Positions 4,465 to 33,009 of a DNA stretch of 33,009 nucleotides are shown in pieces. The notes under the pieces are model-generated. The model searched no databases, was not told the DNA's origin, and was given only the letters and a program-made list of their open reading frames with translations. The stretch comes from a virus. Within the stretch, counting starts at the first letter, position 1. The number at the start of each line of letters is the position of its first letter. Location: positions 1-33,009 of the IMG/VR virus record IMGVR_UViG_3300042555_001626; one strand, 5' to 3'. The translations under genes were made by a program, and so were the position numbers.

Positions 4465-5127
4465 ATGTATATATTTCAAGCAACAAACAATCAGATTGGG
4501 GAAATTTTAAAAGAGTGCTGTATTCTAAGTGACTTAGAACCACCAGTTGAACCTAAACTAGTAATCGAATTTATTAAAAAGCATTTTGGTAAATACGAAG
4601 TCGAAATTATTAAACAAGCATTAGAATGTTGGATTGTAGGCAAGATTGAATTTAAAAAGCCTAACAACCTAAATGCACAATTCATATCTACGCTAATGTA
4701 TAAGTGTATAAGAGATGGTTATGTAGGCAAGGTACACCAATATATAAAAGAGACTAAAAACGAGCCTATGCAGGAAATTACTAAAGAAATGCATGAAGAG
4801 TCTTTGGCAATGGTTAAAAAAGAATGGGGCAAATATGAGGTATCTAAAAATTTCAGTTCATTGTTAAAATATTTCGAAATTCAATATGAGTACATTTATC
4901 GTAATTATGATAAGATGAACTATAGTGAACAAGAGAGGTTAGACATGAAAAATGAATTAATTAATGCAGTACATGAAAGTAAGATTAAGCAAGAAAAAAT
5001 GAGTAACCCATTTATGTTTGATTTTAGTAAGATAACAAGTGTAGTGCCTAATGTTAATTGGGATAGAGTAACTAGTGTATGTTTATATTTTAGAAAAATG
5101 TATGAAGCAGATAAATCTATTCACTAA
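4465..5127 (+). CDS. Replication-linked protein, possible helicase loader
   Basis: The 220-residue product starts 1 bp after the initiator. It is helical and charged, with an N-terminal section (CILSDLEPPVEPKLVIEFIKKHFGKYEVE) resembling small helical replication accessory proteins and a C-terminal FDFSKITSVVPNVNWDRV. There is no Walker A motif, so it is not a DnaC-type ATPase. Position alone suggests a helicase-loading or replisome role, as with lambda O and P. It overlaps the next gene by 26 bp. I do not recognise a named family. Confidence 0.65.
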   Translation: MYIFQATNNQIGEILKECCILSDLEPPVEPKLVIEFIKKHFGKYEVEIIKQALECWIVGKIEFKKPNNLNAQFISTLMYKCIRDGYVGKVHQYIKETKNEPMQEITKEMHEESLAMVKKEWGKYEVSKNFSSLLKYFEIQYEYIYRNYDKMNYSEQERLDMKNELINAVHESKIKQEKMSNPFMFDFSKITSVVPNVNWDRVTSVCLYFRKMYEADKSIH

Positions 5128-5494
5128 TGAAGTTGATGATAAGCCAAACAAGTATTCTAGTAAAATAGAAACCCCAATTTATGAGTGCAAAAATCAAAAG
5201 CCTCATATTTTAGAATTGTTTGATAAGACTAAGTATTCAAGATTATGCAATGAAATAGCACAATCAGATGTTAGTGATGAAGAAAAGGCTTTTTTAATTG
5301 CTTCAGCCTCAAGGCATATTGTGTTTAATTATGAAAAAATTGCAGATTACTATGCACATGCAGATAAGAGTTTACAGCATTTAATGGAGAAAAGTGGTTT
5401 AGTCATCATTGATTTTGAAAATGCAATCCAATATAATTATGTTAAAATGTGTGATGAAATAAGAAAGCAATATCTTGAAGAATATGGAGAATGA
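5102..5494 (+). CDS. Conserved-looking phage protein upstream of the glycosyltransferase
   Basis: From ATG 5102 the 130-residue product reads MKQINLFTNEVDDKP, then QKPHILELFDKTKY, DEEKAFLIASASRHIVFNYE, KIADYYAHADKS and LMEKSGLVIIDFENAI. The SRHIVFNYEKIADYYAHA and LVIIDFENAI blocks look strongly conserved; I recall similar proteins in phages of other phyla, some near modification genes, but cannot name the family with certainty. It overlaps the glycosyltransferase gene by 11 bp and so is likely co-translated with it. His and Asp/Glu residues are present without a textbook active-site pattern. Function unknown; a role with the modification genes is inferred from position. Confidence 0.65.
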   Translation: MKQINLFTNEVDDKPNKYSSKIETPIYECKNQKPHILELFDKTKYSRLCNEIAQSDVSDEEKAFLIASASRHIVFNYEKIADYYAHADKSLQHLMEKSGLVIIDFENAIQYNYVKMCDEIRKQYLEEYGE

Positions 5495-6311
5495 TTTTTG
5501 TGTGTTTATTTTAACACATGGTAGGCCAAATAATGTAGTGACTTACAAAACACTTAGAAATTATGGTTATACAGGTAAAGTGTATTTTATATTGGACAAT
5601 GAAGATAAAACTATTGATGAATATAAAAGTGTTTATGGTGAAGATAGTATAATTGTATTTGATAAAGAGTTAGTTTCTAATAGTGTAGATGAGTATAATA
5701 ATTTTGGTACTAGAAATGTAATTTTATTTGCTAGGAATTATTGTTTTGAAGCAGCCAAAAATCTAGGTTACAAGTATTTTTTGCAGTTGGATGATGATTA
5801 TTATTATTTTGGGTATAGATATGATGAAGGTGCGAAAAAGATTAAAAATCTAGATAAAGTATTTTCAATAGTTTTAGATTTTTACAAGGCTACAAATATC
5901 AAGAGTATTGCATTTAGTCAAGGAGGAGACCATATAGGTGGATTTAGTGGCATAAAGTTGAAGAGAAAATGTATGAATAGTTTCTTTTGTTCTACAGATA
6001 GAGAGTTTCAATTTGTTGGCGTGTTGAATGAAGATGTAAATACTTATACATTGTTAGGTAGTAGAGGTGAGTTGTTTTTTACTTTTACCAATTTGCAGTT
6101 AGACCAAAAAGATACACAAAGCAATAAAGGTGGAATGACCGATGCTTATAATTTAAGTGGTACTTATATAAAATCGTTTCATTCAGTATTGAGTTGTCCT
6201 AGTAGTGTAAAGATATCAATGATGAATACAAACTATGTAAGATTGCATCATTCAGTTAATTGGAATGCAACCACTCCAATGATTTTAGATAGCAAAGTAA
6301 AAAAATTATGA
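5484..6311 (+). CDS. TET-associated-type (GREB1-like) glycosyltransferase 1
   Basis: From ATG 5484 the 275-residue product shows a GT-A plan: first strand and loop FCVFILTHGRPNN (residues 5-17), a VYFILDNEDKT strand, RNVILFARN, then YFLQLDDDYYYF with the metal-binding DDD at 103-105. QGGDHIGG (146-153), RKCMNSFFC (161-169), NEDVNTYTLLGS (182-193), NKGGMTD and RLHHSVNWN (253-261) follow. I recognise this series from the TET-associated glycosyltransferase family described in phage DNA hypermodification loci, where members attach sugars to hydroxymethylated pyrimidines. No TET/JBP oxygenase is seen in this window, so the acceptor is unknown. An ATG overlap links it to the gene at 5102. Confidence 0.8.
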   Translation: MENDFCVFILTHGRPNNVVTYKTLRNYGYTGKVYFILDNEDKTIDEYKSVYGEDSIIVFDKELVSNSVDEYNNFGTRNVILFARNYCFEAAKNLGYKYFLQLDDDYYYFGYRYDEGAKKIKNLDKVFSIVLDFYKATNIKSIAFSQGGDHIGGFSGIKLKRKCMNSFFCSTDREFQFVGVLNEDVNTYTLLGSRGELFFTFTNLQLDQKDTQSNKGGMTDAYNLSGTYIKSFHSVLSCPSSVKISMMNTNYVRLHHSVNWNATTPMILDSKVKKL

Positions 6312-6318
6312 AAATTAT

Positions 6319-6350
6319 TTTGTTTTTTAAAATTAAAATAGTATCTTTAC
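6319..6350 (+). promoter_or_regulatory. Early promoter P3
   Basis: TTTG at 6319-6322, 19 nt, TATCTTTAC at 6342-6350, then ATGGT as in P1 and P5. The first start codon is at 6373, giving a short leader. It begins a long run of overlapping small genes leading into the second half of the modification cluster. Confidence 0.78.
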
Positions 6351-6372
6351 ATGGTTAAATAGAATTAACTAT

Positions 6373-6501
6373 ATGAAGAACAAGAAAAAACAAGTTAGAG
6401 CCACTACAAATTTATTTTTGCAAGATGTTGTTAATGTAATGTATGACAAAAAGCAAATTAGTATTGAAGTTAGAAATCAAAACTTAGAAGATTTGAAATG
6501 A
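6373..6501 (+). CDS. Short basic protein, 42 residues
   Basis: ATG 6373 follows P3; the product starts MKNKKKQVRATTNLFLQDV and ends NQNLEDLK. The stop overlaps the next start as ATGA. The leader and first codons (ATGAAGAACA) match those of the gene behind P5. Basic N-terminus, no membrane segment, function unknown. Overlap and promoter placement are the main support. Confidence 0.6.
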   Translation: MKNKKKQVRATTNLFLQDVVNVMYDKKQISIEVRNQNLEDLK

Positions 6502-6797
6502 GTTTCATTAATTGCAAAACATTAGTTTATCAGATTTTGATTGATAAACCTCACACAAGAGATTGTGACTATTATTTGTATAATCAAGTATTAAAGCATT
6601 TTAATGCACAGCATATAACGGCACTTGATTTGATGAAAAAAATGAAAGAAGGTTTGATATTTAATTTTGAAACTGTTTCTAGAGCAAGGAGATTATTGCA
6701 ACAAGAAAATGAATTTTTAAGAGGTGCAAACTATGTGTTGAGACAAACAAAATTACAAGATATAAGAAAATCGGAGATAAATGGATATAGTAACTAA
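6498..6797 (+). CDS. Hypothetical phage protein with TRDCDYYL motif, 99 residues
   Basis: The product has LVYQILIDKPHTRDCDYYLY (residues 9-28) and SRARRLLQQENEFLRG (about 60-75). This combination (IL, then P, then TR, then D, an aromatic stretch, then RARR) is one I have seen in small phage proteins of unknown function from many hosts. The basic RARR helix could bind nucleic acid. It is overlapped at both ends (4 bp and 17 bp) by neighbours in a tight operon behind P3. Confidence 0.7.
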   Translation: MSFINCKTLVYQILIDKPHTRDCDYYLYNQVLKHFNAQHITALDLMKKMKEGLIFNFETVSRARRLLQQENEFLRGANYVLRQTKLQDIRKSEINGYSN

Positions 6798-6984
6798 TGA
6801 AGCAAGGCAAAAAGCAGTAGTATTGTTTTCTCAAATGATAGAAGCGCAGGAATCATGGAGAAGTAATATACCCTTAGCCAAGCAAAGTGTAAGAATATTG
6901 ATAAGAGAAATGATGTTATTGCCAATGCATGAGAGTCATTATATTTTTTGGGATGATGTTCTTACAGAATTGAATAATTTATGA
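6781..6984 (+). CDS. Hypothetical helical protein, 67 residues
   Basis: Starts ATG 6781 inside the end of the previous gene; product MDIVTNEARQKAVVLFSQM and so on, predicted to be helical, ending DVLTELNNL. No motif recognised. The stop overlaps the next ATG by 4 bp. Its place in a chain of overlapping genes supports that it is translated. Confidence 0.6.
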   Translation: MDIVTNEARQKAVVLFSQMIEAQESWRSNIPLAKQSVRILIREMMLLPMHESHYIFWDDVLTELNNL

Positions 6985-7103
6985 GAAAGTTAGATGAAAA
7001 GGATGCAGAAAAAATTTCATGGGTTATTGTCTTAGTTGCTATATATGTAACGATTTACATGTCATTTATTTTAATGATAATAGACAATTATTTAAGTAAG
7101 TGA
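6981..7103 (+). CDS. Single-pass membrane peptide, 40 residues
   Basis: MRKLDEKDAEKISWV is followed by one hydrophobic helix, about residues 14-35 (WVIVLVAIYVTIYMSFILMI), and a short polar end. The stop TGA overlaps the GTG start of the sigma-like gene (GTGA). A small inner-membrane protein ahead of a sigma-like factor could be a regulator or an exclusion peptide, but nothing in the sequence shows which. Confidence 0.55.
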   Translation: MRKLDEKDAEKISWVIVLVAIYVTIYMSFILMIIDNYLSK

Positions 7104-7684
7104 ACATTAGACTATTAGATTTTGCAAAAAGACACGATGAATGGATTAAGATAGCCGTTTATATTGGTGCAGACCAAGAATTTGCAAAAGAAATAGTTCA
7201 ACAAATGTATTTGAAGTTAGGCGAGATTGAGGTAAAAGAAGGTAGTTTGAATAAACTAATCAATTATGCAGGTGGAATTAATACTGTTTATGTGTTTAAG
7301 GTGATTCAAAGCATATATTTTGGTAATTTTAAAAATAAGGATTTAGCAATATTAGAAGAGATAGAGTACGAGATTCAAGATAGTAATGAAGAGGAGGAAA
7401 TGTATGATATATTGATTAGAAAGATTAAAGTAATTATATCAAGTTTCGATGAATATGAAAGAATGTTACTAGAATTGTATTTTGTACATGATAAAAGTTT
7501 AAGAGATATTCATAAAAGTACAGGCATAGGAGTACACGCAATATTTAACACGATAAAAAATGCAAAACAAAAAATTAAAAGACAAACCGAACAAGAGTAC
7601 AAAAATTACGAAAGTAGTAGAAACGGAAGAAAGACCAGCATTAGGTTTAGGGGATTCAATTGCTCAACTGACGAAGATTACTAA
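7100..7684 (+). CDS. Sigma-70-like RNA polymerase sigma factor
   Basis: The 194-residue product has a region-2-like N-terminus (residues about 12-45, HDEWIKIAVYIGAD then AKEIVQQMYLKLGEI) and a region-4 helix-turn-helix at about 116-161 (FDEYERMLLELYFVHDKSLR, DIHKSTGIGVHAIFNTIKNA, KQKIKR). That is the compact ECF-like sigma layout. It would direct RNA polymerase to phage promoters; the TGTAAC...TTTTAT family before virion genes is the natural candidate target (inference). The start is GTG 7100, overlapping the upstream stop as GTGA. The last 40 residues overlap the next gene in another frame and may be dispensable. Confidence 0.65.
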   Translation: MNIRLLDFAKRHDEWIKIAVYIGADQEFAKEIVQQMYLKLGEIEVKEGSLNKLINYAGGINTVYVFKVIQSIYFGNFKNKDLAILEEIEYEIQDSNEEEEMYDILIRKIKVIISSFDEYERMLLELYFVHDKSLRDIHKSTGIGVHAIFNTIKNAKQKIKRQTEQEYKNYESSRNGRKTSIRFRGFNCSTDEDY

Positions 7685-7997
7685 AATTGATAAACTAGTT
7701 AAGTTTATTGCAGGAGAGGATTGTGGTTGTGATGAACGCAAAGAAAAATTAAACAAACTATTTAGGTATAGTAAGCCTTTGTGTTTGATTGAAGAAGAGT
7801 TTAATTACTTAACGGAATTTCAAAAGAGTCAATCCAATACTTTAAGCAAAGAAGAAGCAGATAAAATAGCAAGTATATGGAATCGTGTATTTCAATCTAG
7901 AAGATTTTATAGACCATGTACATGTGACCCAAAGGCATGGCAAAATATGATTAACGAACTTTTAATGATTTACAAGACATATGAAAGCAACAGTTAG
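7560..7997 (+). CDS. Bacteroidota-phage conserved hypothetical, 145 residues
   Basis: The product has a Lys-rich N-terminus, then ALGLGDSIAQLTKITKIDKL and FIAGEDCGCDERKEKLNKLF (about residues 48-67), and a C-terminal RRFYRPCTCDPKAWQNMIN. GLGD...GEDCGCDERKEKLN is a stretch I associate with small Bacteroidota phage proteins of unknown function. Cys residues in CGC and CTC could bind metal. The only ATG that keeps this block is 7560, which creates a 125-bp overlap with the sigma-like gene. Function unknown. Confidence 0.7.
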   Translation: MQNKKLKDKPNKSTKITKVVETEERPALGLGDSIAQLTKITKIDKLVKFIAGEDCGCDERKEKLNKLFRYSKPLCLIEEEFNYLTEFQKSQSNTLSKEEADKIASIWNRVFQSRRFYRPCTCDPKAWQNMINELLMIYKTYESNS

Positions 7998-8136
7998 TGT
8001 TAGTTATTTGTTTGATTCAACACCAACAAAGAAGGTAGTGTATAGAGTTTGGTATAAAGGATTAATTGTTGGGGAGTACCCAGTAAAAGAACAAGCAGAA
8101 AAGTTAAAAGATAAAATAAATGGAAGTATTAATTAA
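7981..8136 (+). CDS. Small hypothetical protein, 51 residues
   Basis: ATG 7981 opens MKATVSVSYLFDSTPTKK, ending KEQAEKLKDKINGSIN: a likely beta-beta-alpha miniature fold. It overlaps the preceding gene by 17 bp and the ParB-like gene by 17 bp, filling what would otherwise be a gap in a continuous operon. No family recognised. Confidence 0.6.
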   Translation: MKATVSVSYLFDSTPTKKVVYRVWYKGLIVGEYPVKEQAEKLKDKINGSIN

Positions 8137-8797
8137 ATCGATTGATGAAATCAAAGAAAACCCTAATAATCCTAGAAGTATTAGTAAGGGTAAATTTAGA
8201 AAGTTAGTTAATTCTATTAAGGAGTTTCCTAAAATGCTAGATGTAAGACCTTTAGTAATTAATTCAGAAGGATATGTTTTGGGTGGTAATATGAGATTGA
8301 AGGCAATCAAGGAGTTAGGCTTTCAAGAAGTAAAAGTCATAGTTGCAGATGAATTTACTAAAGAACAAGAGAAAGAATTTTTAATTAAAGATAATTTGCC
8401 ATTTGGAGAATGGGACATTGATATGTTGGCAAATGAATATAATCTAGAAGATTTAGTTAATTGGGGATTTAGTGCAAGTGAACTAGCATTAGAAAAGATA
8501 GAAGATATAATTAATGAAACGGAGTATGATGAAGACCCTGTTTATCCTATTTCACCAAAAATTAGTGAGAAGCATGACTATGTTATGATTGTTTGTGATA
8601 ATTCAATTGACTATAATAATTTGTTGACCAAGTTAGGATTGGAGTACAATCAAGATTATAAGTGTCAAAGAGTTGGTATGGGAAGGGTAATTATGTTTGA
8701 TAAATTTAAAAAAATATTCAATGAAGGAAATAGTGAAAGTGGTGATAATGAGCCACAAAAGACCAACAAAGGTAGACACAAGAAAGGTAGTAAGTAA
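8120..8797 (+). CDS. ParB/Srx-like nuclease-fold protein
   Basis: Residues about 1-90 match the ParB/Sulfiredoxin fold: IDEIKENPNNPRSI, then RPLVINSEGYVLGGNMRLKAI with the GGNxRLxA core, then FTKEQEKEFLIKDNLPFGEW. A C-terminal part, HDYVMIVCDNSIDYNNLLTKL and MFDKFKKIF, resembles the region attached to phage ParB-like proteins near DNA modification genes. Stand-alone ParB-like proteins of this kind occur in phage DNA-modification loci and may bind DNA or have nuclease or nucleotide-hydrolysing activity. It lies between the two glycosyltransferase genes; its Lys-rich tail overlaps the second for 77 bp. The partition role of chromosomal ParB is unlikely, as no ParA is present. Confidence 0.8.
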   Translation: MEVLIKSIDEIKENPNNPRSISKGKFRKLVNSIKEFPKMLDVRPLVINSEGYVLGGNMRLKAIKELGFQEVKVIVADEFTKEQEKEFLIKDNLPFGEWDIDMLANEYNLEDLVNWGFSASELALEKIEDIINETEYDEDPVYPISPKISEKHDYVMIVCDNSIDYNNLLTKLGLEYNQDYKCQRVGMGRVIMFDKFKKIFNEGNSESGDNEPQKTNKGRHKKGSK

Positions 8798-9479
8798 TTG
8801 TATTATTAGTGTATCTGAAGAAGAGTACGAAGACTACAAAAAGTTTAACCCTCACAATGAATATCTTGTACACCCTAATGATGTTATAGGACTAACAAGT
8901 AAAATGAAGTGGATACATAAGCAATTAGGCAATTGTATTTTGATGGATGATGATTTAAATGCAATGAATAGATGTTATGTAGACAAAAGTTTCGAAGAAG
9001 GATTCAAGGTTGATGACCCAGATTTAGCATGGGAATTGATACAATCTACTGCCTATGTAGCAAAGCAATTGAATTGTTCAATGTTTGGCTTTAGTAATAC
9101 GGCTAGACCACTTGATTATTCATCATTGAAGCCATATTATTTGACAGGGTTTGCTATTGGTGGTAGTCTAGGTTTTTTTGAAGATTTTCCTATGGATAAA
9201 TTAGATGATGCATGTATATCAGCACAAGATTACTTTTGTAGTGCATTGAGTTCTTATTATAGTAGAAAAACTTTTATCAATAGAAAGTATGCATTTACTA
9301 GTAAAGAGCAAACATTTAAGTCAATTGGAGGAATGTCAGAACATAGAAACACAGATACAGAGAAGGCAGATTATTATTTGTTAAAACAATATTTTGGTAG
9401 TGTTATTGAAAGAAAGAAGCAATCCAATTTGAGAAAGTTGCAGAATCATTATGAAAGAATTTTAAAAATCCCGTTTTAA
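8721..9479 (+). CDS. TET-associated-type (GREB1-like) glycosyltransferase 2
   Basis: I start it at ATG 8721 because MKEIVKVVIMSHKRPTKV restores the first GT-A strand and the S/T-H-x-RP loop seen in glycosyltransferase 1 (FILTHGRP). The metal motif NCILMDDDLNAM (residues 71-82) matches LQLDDDYYYF. Later LTGFAIGGSLGFF, AQDYFCSALSSYYSR (like NEDVNTY) and IGGMSEHRN (like GGMTD) follow the same order. Overall similarity between the two enzymes is low, so they probably use different donors or acceptors. It overlaps the ParB-like gene by 77 bp and touches the methyltransferase gene. Likely role: glycosylating a modified base, or extending the sugar laid down by the first enzyme (inference). Confidence 0.7.
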   Translation: MKEIVKVVIMSHKRPTKVDTRKVVSNCIISVSEEEYEDYKKFNPHNEYLVHPNDVIGLTSKMKWIHKQLGNCILMDDDLNAMNRCYVDKSFEEGFKVDDPDLAWELIQSTAYVAKQLNCSMFGFSNTARPLDYSSLKPYYLTGFAIGGSLGFFEDFPMDKLDDACISAQDYFCSALSSYYSRKTFINRKYAFTSKEQTFKSIGGMSEHRNTDTEKADYYLLKQYFGSVIERKKQSNLRKLQNHYERILKIPF

Positions 9480-10069
9480 TGGAAAAGTTTTATTTAGATA
9501 GTTTAAAAAATAATGATGCCTATTTAATGAATGGGTGGTCAAGTGTAGATATGGCAATCAAAAGGTATTTGTTTGCAGTTCCTTTGTATAACAAATTTTC
9601 AGTAGAAGAATGTCCAATTATATATGATTATGGTTGTGGTACTGCAAATTTCAATGAATATGTCAAGCATAGAAAATATGTAGGTATTGAAGAAATTGAA
9701 GAAATGTACCTTAAAGCAAAAGAAATGTTTCCTAATGTAGAAGTACACCATAAAACACTAGAAGATATGAATATTGGTGTATATGGGTTTAAGTCATTGG
9801 CTATTGCATTAGGTATTTACATGGTAGGAGATAATGATACAAGAGAAGAAGTAATAGAGAAGACTATAAAGCATTGTAAACTTTTATGTGATAGACATTA
9901 TTATGGTTATTTGTTTAATTCTAAGCATGACCATGTAGATTATAAAGAACCACACATGGTATACTATAATTTAAGTGAGTTGATACATAGATTGCAAGAT
10001 GAAGGCTTAAAGGTTACATGTTATTTGTTTGATAAGTATGAGTTTTTTATGCATGTTAAAAAATTCTAA
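9479..10069 (+). CDS. Class I SAM-dependent methyltransferase
   Basis: The 196-residue product has motif I at 49-57 (YDYGCGTAN), the acidic end of strand 2 at YVGIEEIEEMY (67-77), and SLAIALGIYMV in the motif IV region. It lacks the (D/N/S)PP(Y/F) motif of DNA adenine and N4-cytosine methyltransferases and the PC motif of C5-cytosine enzymes, so it is more like small-molecule or sugar methyltransferases. Between a glycosyltransferase and a sugar deacetylase operon, methylation of the attached sugar is a reasonable guess. The start overlaps the upstream stop by one base. Confidence 0.75.
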   Translation: MEKFYLDSLKNNDAYLMNGWSSVDMAIKRYLFAVPLYNKFSVEECPIIYDYGCGTANFNEYVKHRKYVGIEEIEEMYLKAKEMFPNVEVHHKTLEDMNIGVYGFKSLAIALGIYMVGDNDTREEVIEKTIKHCKLLCDRHYYGYLFNSKHDHVDYKEPHMVYYNLSELIHRLQDEGLKVTCYLFDKYEFFMHVKKF

Positions 10070-10077
10070 AAATAAAT

Positions 10078-10110
10078 TTTGTATTTACAAATAAAAATAC
10101 TACCTTTACA
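10078..10110 (+). promoter_or_regulatory. Early promoter P4, leaderless type
   Basis: TTTG at 10078-10081, 19 nt, TACCTTTACA at 10101-10110, then ATG at 10113 only 2 nt later, as in P2. It should drive the operon from the RarA-like gene to terL. Confidence 0.78.
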
Positions 10111-10112
10111 CT

Positions 10113-10724
10113 ATGGATAAGAAGAACACCAAATACGAAATGAGAACGAAGTCAGGACTTGACTTCTATGTAGTAGCATCGGCTTTTCAAAAAGCAGTAA
10201 GAAGATGTGATGTGCAACAAGCAATGTACTTCGGTACGGAATTATTTATTAGTGGCTATGATGAATATGCATGGTCAAGAATAATTATTATGGTATCAGA
10301 AGATATTGGTATTGCAGAACCACAATTACCCTCCCAAATTCATGCATTGTATGAGTTTTACCAATTGTTGAAGAAGAAAAAAAACAAGCATGTTCCAGAA
10401 CGATTGCAATTTATACATGCAATCAATTTAATTGCTAGAAGTCAAAAATCTAGAATGGTTGACAATTATTTAGGTATGTATTTTGACAAGCGTGATTTGT
10501 TAGGTAAGGTTGAGATACCAGACCATGTGTATGATATGCATACAATCAAAGGTAAAATCATGAAGCGTGGCAATGACCACTTCTTTGAACATGCAGCATT
10601 TATCAATAATTGCCCTACACATTTACAAGAAGAGGAGTATATGTTGCGTGACCATATGCAAAAGATATGGAGTGAGAACAACAAACCAAGTGAGGTGAAC
10701 ATTGAGCAAATTGAATTATTTTAA
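10113..10724 (+). CDS. Stand-alone RarA/MgsA C-terminal-domain protein
   Basis: Residues about 20-70 (VVASAFQKAVRRCDVQQAMY, GTELFISGYDEYAWSRIII, SEDIGIAEP) closely follow the C-terminal, tetramer-forming domain of the RarA/MgsA/WRNIP1 AAA+ clamp-loader-like ATPases. The ATPase domain is absent: no Walker motif is present in 203 residues. RarA acts at stalled forks and binds SSB, so this protein might modulate host RarA or be adapted to replicating modified DNA. It heads the operon with the PIG-L and WbqC genes and ends one base into the next start. Family call is firm; role is inference. Confidence 0.72.
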   Translation: MDKKNTKYEMRTKSGLDFYVVASAFQKAVRRCDVQQAMYFGTELFISGYDEYAWSRIIIMVSEDIGIAEPQLPSQIHALYEFYQLLKKKKNKHVPERLQFIHAINLIARSQKSRMVDNYLGMYFDKRDLLGKVEIPDHVYDMHTIKGKIMKRGNDHFFEHAAFINNCPTHLQEEEYMLRDHMQKIWSENNKPSEVNIEQIELF

Positions 10725-11377
10725 TGAGTAAACAAATTATATTAGTAGTAGTTGCCCACCCTGATGATGAAGTATTGGGGTGCGGTGGCTATTTGTTAAA
10801 GAAATCAATTGAAGGTCATGAAACACATGTATTGTACATGAATAATGGCAATACTAGAGTAGGAAACCATAGAAGTGAAATTGAAAACCAAATACAAAAT
10901 GTTGCAAAACGATTAAAGTTTGTTGCCCACATTAAAGATTTTGTCAATAATAAGTTTGACACCTATTCTATAAGCAATATGGCTGATGAGATTAGGCAAT
11001 TAATCAATGAGATAAAGCCAACAATTGTATTGACACATATTAGCAATGATTTGCACCAAGACCATTTGGTTGTAAATCAAGCAGTTATGATTGCAAGTAG
11101 ATTTATGCCTAAGAGTTCTGTCAAAATGGTTATGACCTTTCCAACTATTAGTAGTAGTGAAGTAAACCCTAGTTTTGATTTCAGAGCAGATGCATTGTGT
11201 GATATTTCTGATTATATAAAAGAAAAGATAGATGCAATGGATGAATATGTATATGAACAAAATGCATTTAGTGAATTGAGAGGTAAAGAAGGCATAGAAG
11301 GTTGGGGAAGGTTTTATGGTATGCAAATCAATGTACCTTTTGCTGAAGGCTTTAGAATAGAAAGGATTGTCATATGA
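10724..11377 (+). CDS. PIG-L/LmbE-family zinc de-N-acetylase
   Basis: The AHPDDEVLGCGG signature at residues 11-22 supplies His12 and Asp15, and HQDH at 111-114 supplies the third zinc ligand; 217 residues is a usual family length. Members remove an acetyl group from N-acetylglucosamine in glycolipids or small thiols, exposing an amine. No signal peptide is present, so it works in the cytoplasm. In the same operon as a WbqC-like protein and near two glycosyltransferases, it probably deacetylates a GlcNAc-type sugar on phage DNA or on a nucleotide-sugar precursor (inference). The stop overlaps the WbqC start as ATGA. Confidence 0.87.
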   Translation: MSKQIILVVVAHPDDEVLGCGGYLLKKSIEGHETHVLYMNNGNTRVGNHRSEIENQIQNVAKRLKFVAHIKDFVNNKFDTYSISNMADEIRQLINEIKPTIVLTHISNDLHQDHLVVNQAVMIASRFMPKSSVKMVMTFPTISSSEVNPSFDFRADALCDISDYIKEKIDAMDEYVYEQNAFSELRGKEGIEGWGRFYGMQINVPFAEGFRIERIVI

Positions 11378-12075
11378 TTAGTTGCATGATAAGTCAGCCG
11401 AGGTATTTGCCTAGTATTACATATTTACATAGAATTGCATATGTAGATACCTTAGTAGCATACGATGATGTTCAAAGAGTAGCAAGAGACATAGAGAACA
11501 GGAATAAACTTGTCACACCTAATGGCAAACATCAGATGATAACGATTAGTATATGTTCTGGCAAGAGGGAATTGATTAAGAATAGTATGCTATGTAGTCA
11601 TGATGATTACGATAGACATGCAGAAACAGTTAAGCATTTCTATAAAAATAATTTGGTGTTTTATGACCAAGATATTGTAGATGGTTATTATAATGCTTTA
11701 AAATCTAGTATGCATATGAGGGATAGTTTTGTAGCAGGACTCCAATACCTTATAGACTTGTTTGAAATGGACACCAAAGTAGTTCTGTCAAGTTCCTTAG
11801 AGTACGAAAAAGTAGGAGGAGCAGAACAAATAGTTAAGATATGTAATGCAGTAAATGCAGATAAGTATATTAGTGGTAGAGGAGGAGTAAACTATGGAGT
11901 AACTAAAGAATTTTGTGAAAGTCATGGAATAACATTGTATGAGTATTACAATCATGTACACCCAGAAGTTGGTTTTTTTTACCAAATATTCAATGATGGC
12001 TTTGATAAATGGTATAATGTATTCAAAGAAAGTAGAATTGAAGTGTATAATAAATTAGACAAAGTAAACATATAA
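11374..12075 (+). CDS. WbqC-like family protein
   Basis: The 233-residue product opens MISCMISQPRYLPSITYLHR and continues with DTLVAYDDVQRVARDIENRN, the N-terminal signature of WbqC-like proteins, then the C-terminal SSSLEYEKVGGAEQIVKICN and DKYISGRGGVNYG. The family occurs in O-antigen and other sugar-decoration clusters, where it is thought to help modify amino sugars; its reaction is not settled to my knowledge. Translational coupling (ATGA) to the PIG-L deacetylase fits a two-step scheme in which a freed amine is then acylated or otherwise capped. That scheme is inference. Confidence 0.82.
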   Translation: MISCMISQPRYLPSITYLHRIAYVDTLVAYDDVQRVARDIENRNKLVTPNGKHQMITISICSGKRELIKNSMLCSHDDYDRHAETVKHFYKNNLVFYDQDIVDGYYNALKSSMHMRDSFVAGLQYLIDLFEMDTKVVLSSSLEYEKVGGAEQIVKICNAVNADKYISGRGGVNYGVTKEFCESHGITLYEYYNHVHPEVGFFYQIFNDGFDKWYNVFKESRIEVYNKLDKVNI

Positions 12076-12279: not shown

Positions 12280-12532
12280 GAAACCGCATGTAAAAATATA
12301 TCTTGATTATTTTAAGTACGACTTGTATGACTTTATTCCTTGTGAGGTATGTGAATCTAGAGCAGTAGATATTCACCATATTGAAGCAAGAGGAATGGGA
12401 GGTACTAAGAAAAAGGATGAAATTGAAAACCTTATGGGATTATGTAGAGAGTGCCATGTTAAGTACGGAGATATATCGGAGTTAAAGGATTTTTTAAAGA
12501 AGATTCACAATTTAAGAATGGATGTTAAATGA
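12278..12532 (+). CDS. HNH endonuclease of the packaging module
   Basis: The 84-residue product has CEVC (residues 22-25), the HNH core DIHHIEARGMGG (31-42), Asn51 in ENLMGLC and CRECH (56-60). The two Cys pairs hold a structural zinc; the His residues and Asn form the beta-beta-alpha metal site that cuts DNA. Small HNH proteins next to terminase genes assist DNA cleavage during packaging in several HK97-type phages. It overlaps terS by 4 bp. The start is ATG 12278, which overlaps a short upstream frame; a TTG 6 bp earlier adds only two residues. Confidence 0.85.
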   Translation: MKPHVKIYLDYFKYDLYDFIPCEVCESRAVDIHHIEARGMGGTKKKDEIENLMGLCRECHVKYGDISELKDFLKKIHNLRMDVK

Positions 12533-12909
12533 AAAAGGCATTAGAAAAAAGCATAGAGGCTAGAATAGAGAAACGAGAAAACAATAAAATAGATTTCCTA
12601 GAAGCCTTAGAAAAATCGGCAGGTAATATTAGCATTGCTTGTAAGCAAATCAATGTAGGTCGTAGTACATTTTACAAATGGATGGAAGACCAAGACTTTG
12701 CATTAGCAGTGAAACATATTGAAGAGTCGATGATTGACCTAGCAGAAACTGCTTTATACAAGCAAATAAGAGAAGGAAATACTTCGGCTATTATATTCTA
12801 CCTAAAGTGCAAGGGTAAGAAAAGGGGATACGCAGAAAAACTTGAAATAGGCACAGAGGATGACAATCGTATTAAAATTGAAATCGTAGATGTTCGTACT
12901 CCAAACTAA
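12529..12909 (+). CDS. terS: Terminase small subunit (TerS)
   Basis: The 126-residue product has a charged N-terminus and a helix-turn-helix at about 33-52 (NISIACKQINVGRSTFYKWM), followed by DQDFALAVKHIEESMIDLAE and NTSAIIFYLKCKGKKRGYAE. This is the usual small-terminase plan: DNA-binding HTH, helical oligomerisation part, C-terminal tail. It should recognise phage DNA and present it to TerL. The HNH gene overlaps its start and terL overlaps its last 20 bp, the expected order. Assigned by the HTH, the NTSAIIFYLKCKGKKRGY block and its neighbours. Confidence 0.85.
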   Translation: MKKALEKSIEARIEKRENNKIDFLEALEKSAGNISIACKQINVGRSTFYKWMEDQDFALAVKHIEESMIDLAETALYKQIREGNTSAIIFYLKCKGKKRGYAEKLEIGTEDDNRIKIEIVDVRTPN

Positions 12910-14050
12910 TGTTGTATTTAGGCATTTAGTAAATAGTCAAAAGAAAATCATTGTAGAGCAAGGTGGTACTAGAAGTGGTAAAACCTATAATATATTGATG
13001 TGGTTAATCTTTGACTATTGTATGAATAACAAAGGCAAGATTGTATCTATAGTTAGAAAAACCTTTCCTGCAGTTAGGGCATCAGTAATGAGGGATTTCT
13101 TTGAGATATTGTCTAAGTGTAACATGTATAGTGAGGAGTTTCACAACAAGAGTCAGTTTGAATATTATTTGAATGGCAATACGATTGAGTTTATGTCCGT
13201 TGACCAACCACAAAAAGTAAGAGGTCGGAAGCGTAATATATTGTTTATCAATGAAGCAAACGAATTAGACCTAGAAGATTGGAGGCAATTGCTATTGAGG
13301 ACCACCGAAAAGGTGATATTGGATTTTAACCCTAGTGATGAGTTTCATTGGATTTACGATGAGGTATTAATTCGTGAAGATGTTGAATTTTACCAAACGA
13401 CCTATAAAGACAATCCCTTTTTGGAACAAGTAGTTATTGATGAGATTGAAAGGTTAAAAACTATTGATGAAAATTATTGGAGGGTTTATGGTCTAGGAGA
13501 GAGAGGTCAAAATAGAAGTACAGTATTCCAATTTATTATAGCAGATATACCAGAAACGGCTAAGTTAAAATCATATGGATTGGACTTTGGCTTTAGTGCA
13601 GACCCTTCAAGTCTAGTAGCGTTTTATATAGATGGAGATACTATATACTTCGATGAATTAATTTATCAGACAGGTATGACAAACATAGATATAGGTAATG
13701 CAATAAAAAGTATTGGTATAGATAGAAGAGATGTTATATGGGCGGATAGTGCAGAGCCGAAGAGTATACATGAATTGTATCAGTTTGGTTATAATGTTAA
13801 AGGAACTGTTAAAGGTTCGGATAGTATAAATGTTGGTATTGATATGATGAGAAGGTATACTATTGCCTTGACCAAGAGAAGCCTCAATTTAATTAAAGAG
13901 TTTCGTAATTATAAATACATAGAAGATAAGATGGGTAGGCTAACTAATAAGCCAGTAGATGCTTTTAACCATGGTATTGATGCATGTAGGTATGCCGTTT
14001 ACAATACTATGTCTAGACCAAATTTAGGCAGGTATTCAATACGAGGCTAG
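12890..14050 (+). CDS. terL: Terminase large subunit (TerL), ATPase and nuclease
   Basis: The 386-residue product is a short Terminase_3-type (PBSX-like) motor. The Walker A loop is GGTRSGKT (25-32); Walker B is ILFINEA with the catalytic Glu122; a coupling-type stretch KVILDFNPSD lies at 141-150. The RNase-H-like nuclease has YGLDFGFSADPS (Asp232), IWADSAEP (Asp286) and DAFNHGIDACRY (Asp364). It pumps DNA into the capsid through the portal and cuts it. It starts inside terS. Length is at the short end for TerL but all motifs are intact. Transcription probably comes from P4. Confidence 0.95.
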   Translation: MFVLQTNVVFRHLVNSQKKIIVEQGGTRSGKTYNILMWLIFDYCMNNKGKIVSIVRKTFPAVRASVMRDFFEILSKCNMYSEEFHNKSQFEYYLNGNTIEFMSVDQPQKVRGRKRNILFINEANELDLEDWRQLLLRTTEKVILDFNPSDEFHWIYDEVLIREDVEFYQTTYKDNPFLEQVVIDEIERLKTIDENYWRVYGLGERGQNRSTVFQFIIADIPETAKLKSYGLDFGFSADPSSLVAFYIDGDTIYFDELIYQTGMTNIDIGNAIKSIGIDRRDVIWADSAEPKSIHELYQFGYNVKGTVKGSDSINVGIDMMRRYTIALTKRSLNLIKEFRNYKYIEDKMGRLTNKPVDAFNHGIDACRYAVYNTMSRPNLGRYSIRG

Positions 14051-14474: not shown

Positions 14475-14573
14475 ATGCAAAGAGTAAAGAATATAATCAT
14501 TAACACGATGAACGCTTTGTTTATCCTAGCATTTATAATTGGTTTATTAGTAAGTATATTAGAAAGAATATGA
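14475..14573 (+). CDS. Single-pass membrane peptide, 32 residues
   Basis: ATG 14475 encodes MQRVKNIIINTMNALFILAF and ends SILERI, one hydrophobic helix from about residue 7 to 29. The stop overlaps the ArdA start (ATGA), so the two are probably co-translated. Function unknown; tiny membrane proteins in such cassettes can be exclusion factors, but nothing here shows that. Confidence 0.5.
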   Translation: MQRVKNIIINTMNALFILAFIIGLLVSILERI

Positions 14574-15085
14574 AAGTACAAATTTATGTTGGCACATATG
14601 CCAAATACAACAACGGAAGTATAGAAGGTAAATGGATAGATGTTACCGATTTATCAAAAGAAGAGTTTGAGCAAATATGTAAAGAATTGCATAATGATGA
14701 AGAAGACCCAGAGTATATGTTTCAAGATTGGGAATGTCCTAGATACCTAGATAATTTTATTGGTGAAAGTGGTATCATGGATAAATTTTGGGATATCAAA
14801 GAAGAGGGCAATGGATTAAGTGATGATGATTTGGAGGCATTCTCAATATTTGTAGACCATGGACACCCCGCAGATTTAAGAAAGTTTAGAGATGCATATA
14901 AAGGGCATACTAATTCGTTCAATATTGAAAGAGATTTTGGTTATGAAATAGCAGAAGAAATGGGTTACATTGACCAAATGCCAGAATCGATTAGGTATTA
15001 CTTTGATGCAGAAGCATTCGGAAGAGATTTACTTATGACAGACTTTTGGGAAGAAGATGGTCACATATTTTATAGTTTTTATTAA
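14570..15085 (+). CDS. ardA: ArdA anti-restriction protein (DNA mimic)
   Basis: The N-terminus VQIYVGTYAKYNNGSIEGKW, followed by IDVTDLSKEEFEQICKEL, is the hallmark of ArdA, as in ORF18 of Tn916. The rest is rich in Asp/Glu (HNDEEDPEYMFQDWECPR, EEGNGLSDDDLEAFSIF, EIAEEMGYID), and 171 residues is the normal length. ArdA folds into an elongated dimer whose acidic surface imitates B-form DNA and blocks type I restriction-modification enzymes. It lies between host-type promoters, so it should be made as soon as DNA enters, although its neighbours are late genes. Confidence 0.92.
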   Translation: MKVQIYVGTYAKYNNGSIEGKWIDVTDLSKEEFEQICKELHNDEEDPEYMFQDWECPRYLDNFIGESGIMDKFWDIKEEGNGLSDDDLEAFSIFVDHGHPADLRKFRDAYKGHTNSFNIERDFGYEIAEEMGYIDQMPESIRYYFDAEAFGRDLLMTDFWEEDGHIFYSFY

Positions 15086-32716: not shown

Positions 32717-32907
32717 TGAAGCATTTTAACGATAATACTGCAGACATATTGGCTACGACTAGTTTTGTTAGTACATTGGCTCATTATTCTATGATGTTTC
32801 AGCCTATAGTTAGTATGTTTGCAGGTCTTATTGCTATTGTATCTGGTTTGTTTGCTATAAGATATTACTATTTAAAGAGTAAAAGATATGGCAAAGGCGA
32901 AGAGTAA
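32716..32907 (+). CDS. Putative holin, 63 residues
   Basis: The N-terminal half is polar and amphipathic (NDNTADILATTSFVSTLAHY); one long hydrophobic segment follows at about 27-48 (MFQPIVSMFAGLIAIVSGLF) and a strongly basic tail IRYYYLKSKRYGKGEE. This is the layout of single- or two-pass phage holins such as T7 gp17.5. The TAATG overlap puts it in the same message as the fibre genes. Together with the membrane protein at 161 and the amidase at 339 it forms a lysis cassette across the circle junction. Confidence 0.6.
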   Translation: MKHFNDNTADILATTSFVSTLAHYSMMFQPIVSMFAGLIAIVSGLFAIRYYYLKSKRYGKGEE

Positions 32908-33009
32908 AGGAGATGTATCTAAGTTGTTCAAGGTAAAACCAAAGAAGAACAATAAAGGAGTACATTCAAAAAACAATAAGCCTGATAAGGCGTATAGAGG
33001 ACAAGGTAG
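32850..33009. repeat. Right copy of the terminal direct repeat
   Basis: Second copy of bases 1-160, with the silent A/G difference at 32883. Joining the copies restores two genes cut by the window ends: the holin-like gene starting at 32716 and the small basic gene complete at 39-170. Confidence 0.93.
32888..33009 (+). CDS. 5' part of the small basic gene (cut by the window end)
   Basis: Same gene as 39-170; 122 of its 132 bases are present before the window stops. Confidence 0.65.
   Translation, partial: MAKAKSKGDVSKLFKVKPKKNNKGVHSKNNKPDKAYRGQG

Follow-up and report, generated by a model that had tools for sequence, protein, structure and literature searches.

What do the glycosyltransferases and sugar-tailoring enzymes of this phage modify, and how is their substrate prepared? 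The window analysed here is a stretch of 33,009 nt (positions 1 to 33,009 of IMG/VR virus record IMGVR_UViG_3300042555_001626). The 33-kb phage contig has direct terminal repeats of 160 bp that differ by one mismatch, and is therefore probably a complete genome. A sequence-only reading had proposed that two glycosyltransferases (GT1 and GT2), a ParB-like protein, a methyltransferase, a RarA C-terminal-domain protein (RarAC), a PIG-L deacetylase and a WbqC-like protein act in a pathway of sugar transfer and tailoring. Profile searches found each of these genes in its place. Sugar transfer and tailoring, a DNA target, the TAGT identity of the glycosyltransferases and the lack of a recognised primer are retained from that interpretation; the order in which the two glycosyltransferases would act is not. 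We consider it likely (with a probability of about 0.72) that the gene set is a phage DNA-glycosylation cassette, in which ParB would deliver GT2 (TAGT2), a HexNAc would be transferred and the sugar would then be deacetylated and elaborated.

Both glycosyltransferases belong to the TAGT family (PF20691), from which sugar transfer onto DNA is predicted. GT1, or TAGT1 (5475..6311, + strand), is of the GT-A type and matches PF20691 with an E value of 2.4e-38 (132.6 bits) and phrog_842, the T6-type beta-glucosyl-HMC-alpha-glucosyltransferase, with an E value of 2.5e-70; its frame opens at TTG 5475, and ATG 5484 is the likely start. The GT-A glycosyltransferase TAGT2 (8721..9479, + strand, frame open from 8697) probably starts at ATG 8721, a position kept in relatives, and matches PF20691 with an E value of 2.7e-7 (31.2 bits). 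Both scores lie above the family cut-off of 27.5 bits, in line with the DDD motifs and TAGT-like blocks described earlier, and a profile check that might have left the two enzymes matching capsule or LPS families only placed them in TAGT instead. The motifs DDD 84-86, D178 and GG 211-212 of TAGT2 are kept in relatives, and the DDD, D178 and GG of the family are conserved across alignments of 18-51 sequences. The predicted model of TAGT2 (pLDDT 94) has GT-A enzymes as its PDB fold matches; the best of these include the UDP-GlcNAc enzymes GnT-I and TarP, at TM < 0.5, which does not fix the donor. Searching PDB sequences with TAGT yielded no relative at the set threshold, and GT2 as a lone single-sequence query retrieved no viral relatives; these were instead found via alignments and the terminase.

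ParB2 (8120..8797, + strand) comprises a ParB/Srx-like N-domain and a type C2 C-domain, and is proposed to be a DNA-delivery adaptor. It matches phrog_498 (DNA methyltransferase N-terminus; E value of 2.5e-29), phrog_620 (2.8e-27) and PF02195 (5.2e-5). Assignment as a chromosome or plasmid partition protein was rejected, as the partition ParB models score below their cut-offs (23.7 versus 26.3 bits for PF02195 and 24.8 versus 58.45 for TIGR00180); only the N-domain is ParB-like.

The target of the cassette is best judged from its genomic setting. When relatives are traced by way of the large terminase, the interval between ParB and TerS proves to be an exchange slot, the downstream edge of which is formed, here as in the relatives, by the small and large terminase subunits (12529..14050, + strand, phrog terminase matches). 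The cargo of this slot comprises Dcm, ParB-N6/N4-MTase fusions, Mom, 7-deazaG genes, TET, ABC-GNAT, PAPS reductase and TAGT cassettes; in these relatives TET and TAGT are alternatives and never occur together. A comparison of eight close relatives with cargo of the TAGT, Mom, MTase, TET or deazaG type shows that their ParB N-domains keep 89-98% identity regardless of cargo, whereas the C-domains are 16-34% identical between cargo types and 68-98% identical inside one type. In the slot comparison the C2 domain co-varies with TAGT cargo (p = 1.8e-13). The TET/JBP-FkbM cassettes (L006, L068 and L085) and Mom cassettes (L017 and L064) lie in this slot as well, following a ParB N-domain of the same family, but differ in chemistry. 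Phage ParB-DNA methyltransferase fusions (phrog_498) likewise share the N-domain family and the slot; they carry a fused methyltransferase, whereas the window phage encodes its glycosyltransferase in trans together with its own predicted C2 docking domain. Because the slot is shared with bona fide DNA-modification cassettes, the neighbourhood survey favours DNA over surface glycans as the likely target, as had been suggested. The near-identical N-domain could also be a mere recombination anchor, which counts against the DNA-glycosylation reading.

RarAC (10113..10724, + strand) is a stand-alone RarA/MgsA C-terminal domain, with an above-cut-off match to PF12002 (E value of 2.1e-10) and a profile match to RarA (3pvs_A; 1.1e-11). 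Its 203 residues span the C-terminal domain only, so that it differs from RarA/MgsA in lacking the AAA+ ATPase motor and in being encoded beside a TAGT. Of the 82 non-redundant RarAC loci, 77 have a TAGT nearby and 70 have a ParB, and the association of RarAC with TAGT is also seen in the slot comparison (p = 3.8e-9). The RarA-domain gene is present as first described, and it is a near-constant partner of TAGT2 instead of an accessory. From these co-occurrences ParB-TAGT2-RarAC is a conserved core. It is found independently in Microbacterium phages, where Ariadne has the similar order ParB-GT-UDP-glucose dehydrogenase homologue-RarAC, with this sugar enzyme in place of PIG-L and WbqC, and also in bacterial genome contigs of several phyla. 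The passages located on these phages name the genes but give neither a DNA-modification role nor a RarA-domain link. The cassette is, on this comparative evidence, a swappable and widespread system shared by dozens of unrelated phage lineages. The earlier suggestion that the combination may be undescribed therefore holds in one respect: it is not restricted to this phage, but literature searches that combined phage DNA modification with WbqC or with RarA gave no description of the ParB-TAGT-RarAC core.

From 8120 to 12075 successive genes overlap or lie at most 45 bp apart, consistent with one operon. The promoters P3 and P4 proposed previously are unsupported, because the Bacteroidetes-type pattern scanned (TTTG-N17-23-TANNTTTG) occurs at four sites against 3.06 expected. 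Within this run, 9479..10069 (+ strand) encodes a SAM-dependent class I methyltransferase with a DYGCG motif and a weak match to Methyltransf_25 (E value of 0.0027). It matched no DNA-MTase family, PHROG or NCBIfam model, is present in nine of the 82 RarAC loci and probably acts on the sugar or a substituent, not directly on the base. The PIG-L/LmbE-type N-deacetylase (10724..11377, + strand) matches PF02585 with an E value of 2.3e-23 (83.6 bits; cut-off 28.2). Its AHPDDE and HxDH motifs are conserved (H12, D14, D15 and H114 invariant, E16 and D113 nearly so), leaving the metal site intact, and its relatives include TT1542, the LmbE-related protein 2ixd and diacetylchitobiose deacetylase. The WbqC-family protein (11374..12075, + strand), which may act on the exposed amine, matches PF08889 with an E value of 1.8e-29 (103.6 bits; cut-off 21.3). 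Its predicted model is confident (pLDDT 91.9), but a PDB fold search gave no match at E <= 0.001, so its role is assigned provisionally. Neither WbqC nor the methyltransferase had a match in the phage collection. In the 82 RarAC loci, PIG-L and WbqC are mostly present or absent together (37 loci have both, six have one without the other; 37/5/1/39, p = 1e-16), and some PIG-L/WbqC clusters contain Polysacc_synt_2. Together with the TAGT matches, these two enzymes support the reading of sugar transfer followed by tailoring.

In the proposed mechanism, the ParB N-domain would handle DNA and the cargo-specific C-domain would dock TAGT2. RarAC may organise the complex or couple it to replicating or recombining DNA, by analogy with the T4 alpha-GT and the sliding clamp. 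TAGT2 would then move a HexNAc, probably GlcNAc from UDP-GlcNAc, onto DNA; a HexNAc is suggested by the intact metal site of PIG-L, the Polysacc_synt_2 genes and the presence of GnT-I and TarP among the best folds. PIG-L would deacetylate this sugar, WbqC would cap or substitute the amine so freed, and the methyltransferase would methylate the product. Such bulky modified DNA could be protected from restriction, and a tailored amino sugar that hides the viral DNA from bacterial defences is the most likely outcome.

How the base would be primed divides the DNA-glycosylation reading. At the sensitivity of the Pfam models, Tet_JBP, 2OG-FeII_Oxy_3 and Thymidylat_synt have no match in the 33-kb window, and the contig is apparently complete, which bears out the statement that no base-oxidising enzyme is visible. 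Membership of the TET- or hydroxymethylase-dependent DNA-glycosylation systems was rejected, as no TET/JBP or thymidylate-synthase-family primer was detected in the window. The T6 TAGT is a DNA glucosyltransferase, and TAGT activity in the literature lies downstream of hydroxymethylcytosine, on a base that is already glucosylated (PMC13216743); the missing primer thus counts against the DNA-glycosylation reading. The T6/T2 beta-glucosyl-HMC-alpha-glucosyltransferase shares Pfam family and GT-A fold with the enzymes described here. In T-even phages, however, a hydroxymethylase makes hmC and TAGT adds the second sugar, whereas in the window phage no primer, alpha-GT or beta-GT was found and the partners are ParB and RarAC. 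It is quite possible, if short of probable, that the base is first hydroxylated or otherwise derivatised by a primer that escaped recognition, either a small phage protein or an enzyme of the host, and that TAGT would then work as it does in known systems. This variant of the DNA-glycosylation reading, opposed to direct glycosylation of a canonical base, would fit both the known TAGTs and the continuing emergence of new primers such as CmoX, which makes 5-carboxymethylcytosine (PMC12783734). Against it, about 84 non-redundant loci show no primer gene that recurs next to the core, and the TAGT-bearing records searched, a 31.8-kb complete phage included, contain no Tet_JBP and no thymidylate-synthase match above cut-off. 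More speculatively, and on balance unlikely, a ParB-guided TAGT/RarAC complex might glycosylate a canonical, unprimed base directly, with interchangeable tailoring modules (PIG-L/WbqC, UDP-glucose dehydrogenase and epimerases) diversifying the sugar into undescribed DNA amino-sugar and uronic-acid modifications across several bacterial phyla.

Glycosylation of virion proteins, of the capsid or tail, is an improbable alternative. Some actinophage glycosyltransferases are reported to act in this way, the core is present in Microbacterium phages, and PIG-L and WbqC, typical of surface glycans, would fit glycoprotein sugars. The cassette also adjoins the terminase and structural genes, and genes so close to the terminase could act on virion proteins; these points count against a DNA target. 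However, MTases, Mom, TET and deazaG genes use the same slot and ParB N-domain, some relatives have ParB fused to N6/N4 DNA MTases, and the best-known relative, the T6 TAGT, works on DNA. Alteration of host surface polysaccharide (seroconversion or superinfection exclusion) is very improbable: the WbqC and PIG-L families do occur in O-antigen-type clusters and the GT-A fold would suit, but the window has no recognisable flippase, polymerase or lipid-carrier enzyme, the glycosyltransferases exceed the TAGT cut-off and the slot is one for DNA modification.

If the DNA-glycosylation reading is correct, amino sugars and other tailored sugars would occur on DNA, and a DNA-modifying glycosyltransferase may work without a known base primer. 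A 2026 paper counts solitary TAGTs, which lack alpha-GT and beta-GT and have no known role, in 288 of the 753 phage genomes that carry a GT homologue (PMC13216743). The TAGTs described here are alike in lacking both enzymes, and many TAGTs would now gain a partner set (ParB, RarAC and tailoring enzymes) and an address in a ParB-anchored exchange slot before the terminase.

The earlier proposal that GT1 attaches a sugar and GT2 extends it is unsupported, because GT2, not GT1, is the TAGT that co-occurs with RarAC, PIG-L and WbqC, whereas in other phages the ParB-TAGT1 pair stands alone, with ParB upstream. GT1 is, by this comparison, part of a separate ParB-TAGT1 unit, which would probably add another sugar or act at other sites. 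As the TAGT2 profile does not retrieve TAGT1, although both match PF20691, the two are classed as distinct subfamilies. Directly upstream of GT1, the ORF at 5075..5494 (+ strand), absent from the gene list of the sequence-only reading, encodes a ParB-type C-terminal domain of type C1 without a ParB N-domain, the putative TAGT1 partner. It covers positions 148-216 of phrog_620 (E value of 1.4e-6) and aligns to the C-terminal ends of the full-length ParB proteins that partner TAGT1 in L079, Lactobacillus c5, jlb1 and HHTV-2. Culturable carriers are available in Microbacterium cluster EC and, for the TAGT1 type, in Lactobacillus c5 and phi jlb1.

The genes picked out by the sequence-only reading are all present in the window, an IMG/VR virus record, where those for a ParB-like protein (ParB2, 8120-8797; an N-domain followed by a type C2 C-domain), the glycosyltransferase GT2 (TAGT2, 8721-9479), a class I methyltransferase (MT, 9479-10069), a stand-alone RarA C-terminal domain (RarAC, 10113-10724), a PIG-L deacetylase (10724-11377) and a WbqC-like protein (11374-12075) follow one another in this order. 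As they overlap or lie no more than 43 bp apart, 8120-12075 is probably one operon. An ORF overlooked by that reading (5075-5494) can be aligned with the ParB proteins that partner TAGT1-type enzymes in other phages, over their C-terminal half; unlike its relatives, it encodes a ParB C-domain, of type C1, without an N-domain, and may share that of ParB2. Together with GT1 (TAGT1, 5475-6311) this orphan domain is a second unit, apart from the TAGT2 cassette.

Both glycosyltransferases score above the Pfam TAGT cut-off, GT1 strongly (E = 2.4e-38) and GT2 more weakly (E = 2.7e-7), in line with their initial assignment. In the phage collection, many relatives of TAGT1 have a ParB-like gene in front of them, and many sit immediately upstream of the terminase (Lactobacillus c5, phi jlb1, Porphyromonas phage005 and Escherichia phages); that of HHTV-2 lacks the terminase-proximal position, and TET is absent from every relative examined. 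In the glycosyltransferase alignments, DDD (84-86), D178 and GG (211-212), numbered as in GT2, are invariant or nearly so. The predicted structure of GT2 (pLDDT 94) resembles PDB entries of GT-A enzymes; among the best fold matches (TM < 0.5) are N-acetylglucosaminyltransferase I and TarP, both of which use UDP-GlcNAc. The model is consistent with a HexNAc donor.

IMG/VR was scanned with alignments of RarAC and of PIG-L, and pooling with the terminase loci described below gave 82 non-redundant RarAC loci. TAGT is present in 77 of these, ParB in 70, WbqC in 38, MT in nine and PIG-L in 42, the last count being raised by the inclusion of loci found through PIG-L. Of the five groups that lack TAGT, four have RarAC within about 1.3 kb of a locus end. 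PIG-L and WbqC occur together (both in 37 loci, PIG-L alone in five, WbqC alone in one, neither in 39; p = 1e-16). TET was not found in the RarAC loci, and only the small terminase subunit is as frequent there as the ParB-TAGT-RarAC core. Gene order and orientation differ widely, which argues for functional linkage. The complete gene order of the window (ParB-TAGT-MT-RarAC-PIG-L-WbqC-terminase) recurs in five or more related records (L008, L010, L174, L177 and L178). Outside IMG/VR, Microbacterium phage Ariadne (cluster EC) has consecutive genes for ParB, a glycosyltransferase, a UDP-glucose dehydrogenase homologue and RarAC; against profiles built without Ariadne, its glycosyltransferase scores E = 7.1e-25 (TAGT2 profile) and its RarAC 1e-47. 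Bacterial genome contigs carry the core as well; they are attributed to Bacteroidota, Planctomycetota, Chlorobi, Clostridia/Bacillota and others, though those in metagenome bins may be misassigned. TAGTs, including solitary ones, are already known; a 2013 NAR paper reportedly made the original prediction. Cluster EC phages have been described as carrying glycosyltransferase and UDP-glucose dehydrogenase genes. In the literature searched, neither the core nor its extension by PIG-L and WbqC was described, and nor was the ParB-anchored slot.

This slot was delineated in 80 related IMG/VR loci reached via the large terminase, in which alternative cassettes fill the stretch from the ParB gene to the small terminase. 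About 30 carry TAGT cassettes. Others carry a C5-cytosine MTase (L077), ParB fused to an N6/N4 MTase (L027, L067), Mom (L017, L018, L024, L064), FolE/QueD/QueE for 7-deazaguanine (L035, L048, L071), TET with or without an FkbM methyltransferase (L006, L068, L069, L085), or GT-B or GLF genes; TET and TAGT never share a locus. The FkbM-type gene adjoins a TET/JBP oxygenase at L006:308-1820, L068:3401-4972 and L085:8068-9642, with the same ParB N-domain family ahead, possibly a TET-plus-tailoring cassette without TAGT. A set of ParB, ABC-type ATPase, GNAT and formyltransferase genes (L020:3819-6198, L034, L036) resembles the ABC-GNAT pair predicted to be a DNA acyl-modification system (PMC7824862), the formyltransferase being additional here. 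PAPS reductase (with DUF3440) and a second ParB-like gene occupy six loci (L015, L016, L029, L040, L041, L046), often with N6/N4 MTase-like and glycosyltransferase-like genes nearby. A UDP-galactopyranose mutase adjoining the small terminase (L053:594-1712) suggests galactofuranose as another possible sugar.

Across eight close relatives, the ParB N-domain retains 89-98% identity whatever the cargo, whereas C-domains share 68-98% when the cargo is of one type and 16-34% when it differs. Among ParB-bearing loci, the C2-type domain accompanies TAGT in 23 and occurs without it in one (Fisher p = 1.8e-13, which overstates independence because the loci share ancestry and part of the C2 profile came from TAGT loci); the two TAGT loci without it are both of C1 type. 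The N-domain may in part be a recombination anchor. Read most simply, these sequences pair a single DNA-handling N-domain with docking domains specific to each cargo, TAGT being one of several DNA-modifying cargos. The cassette could possibly glycosylate virion proteins or the surface instead, but this would leave both the slot and the shared N-domain unexplained.

At the sequence level, the comparisons thus establish a conserved gene set, the slot and its domain logic, from which a DNA-modification pathway can be proposed. ParB2 would bring TAGT2 to DNA, and RarAC, a homologue of the C-terminal domain of RarA (3pvs), would support it, perhaps through a link to replicating DNA comparable to the binding of T4 alpha-GT to the gp45 clamp (PMC13216743). 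TAGT2 would add a HexNAc and PIG-L, whose metal-site residues are intact and whose relatives deacetylate GlcNAc derivatives, would expose an amine for further elaboration by WbqC and MT. The sugar itself appears to differ from phage to phage, as suggested by the UDP-glucose dehydrogenase homologue in the cassettes of Ariadne and L266 and by epimerase-family genes in others.

The acceptor in this DNA model may be a canonical base or one primed by an unrecognised enzyme. The window ends in a 160 bp direct repeat of its start (1-160 and 32850-33009, one mismatch), so it probably represents a whole, closed genome of about 32.85 kb. Searched with profiles, the window gave no match to Tet_JBP or 2OG-FeII_Oxy_3, in line with the sequence-only reading, which saw no base-oxidising enzyme, and none to the thymidylate-synthase family, which includes dCMP/dUMP hydroxymethylases. 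Nor did these profiles match the remaining TAGT-bearing records that were searched, eight of which come from the phage collection (including Lactobacillus c5, phi jlb1, HHTV-2, Nocardia NTR1 and Microbacterium Ariadne). The first Tet_JBP search was able to detect the family, as all four loci carrying TET scored. A further 25 records around RarAC or PIG-L loci, a set that included no known Tet_JBP carrier as a control, gave no Tet_JBP match and a single sub-cut-off match to thymidylate synthase. A highly divergent priming enzyme is possible. Just downstream of the terminase, the window also encodes an ArdA antirestriction protein (14570-15085; PF07275, E = 2.2e-28), likely a second anti-restriction measure of the phage.
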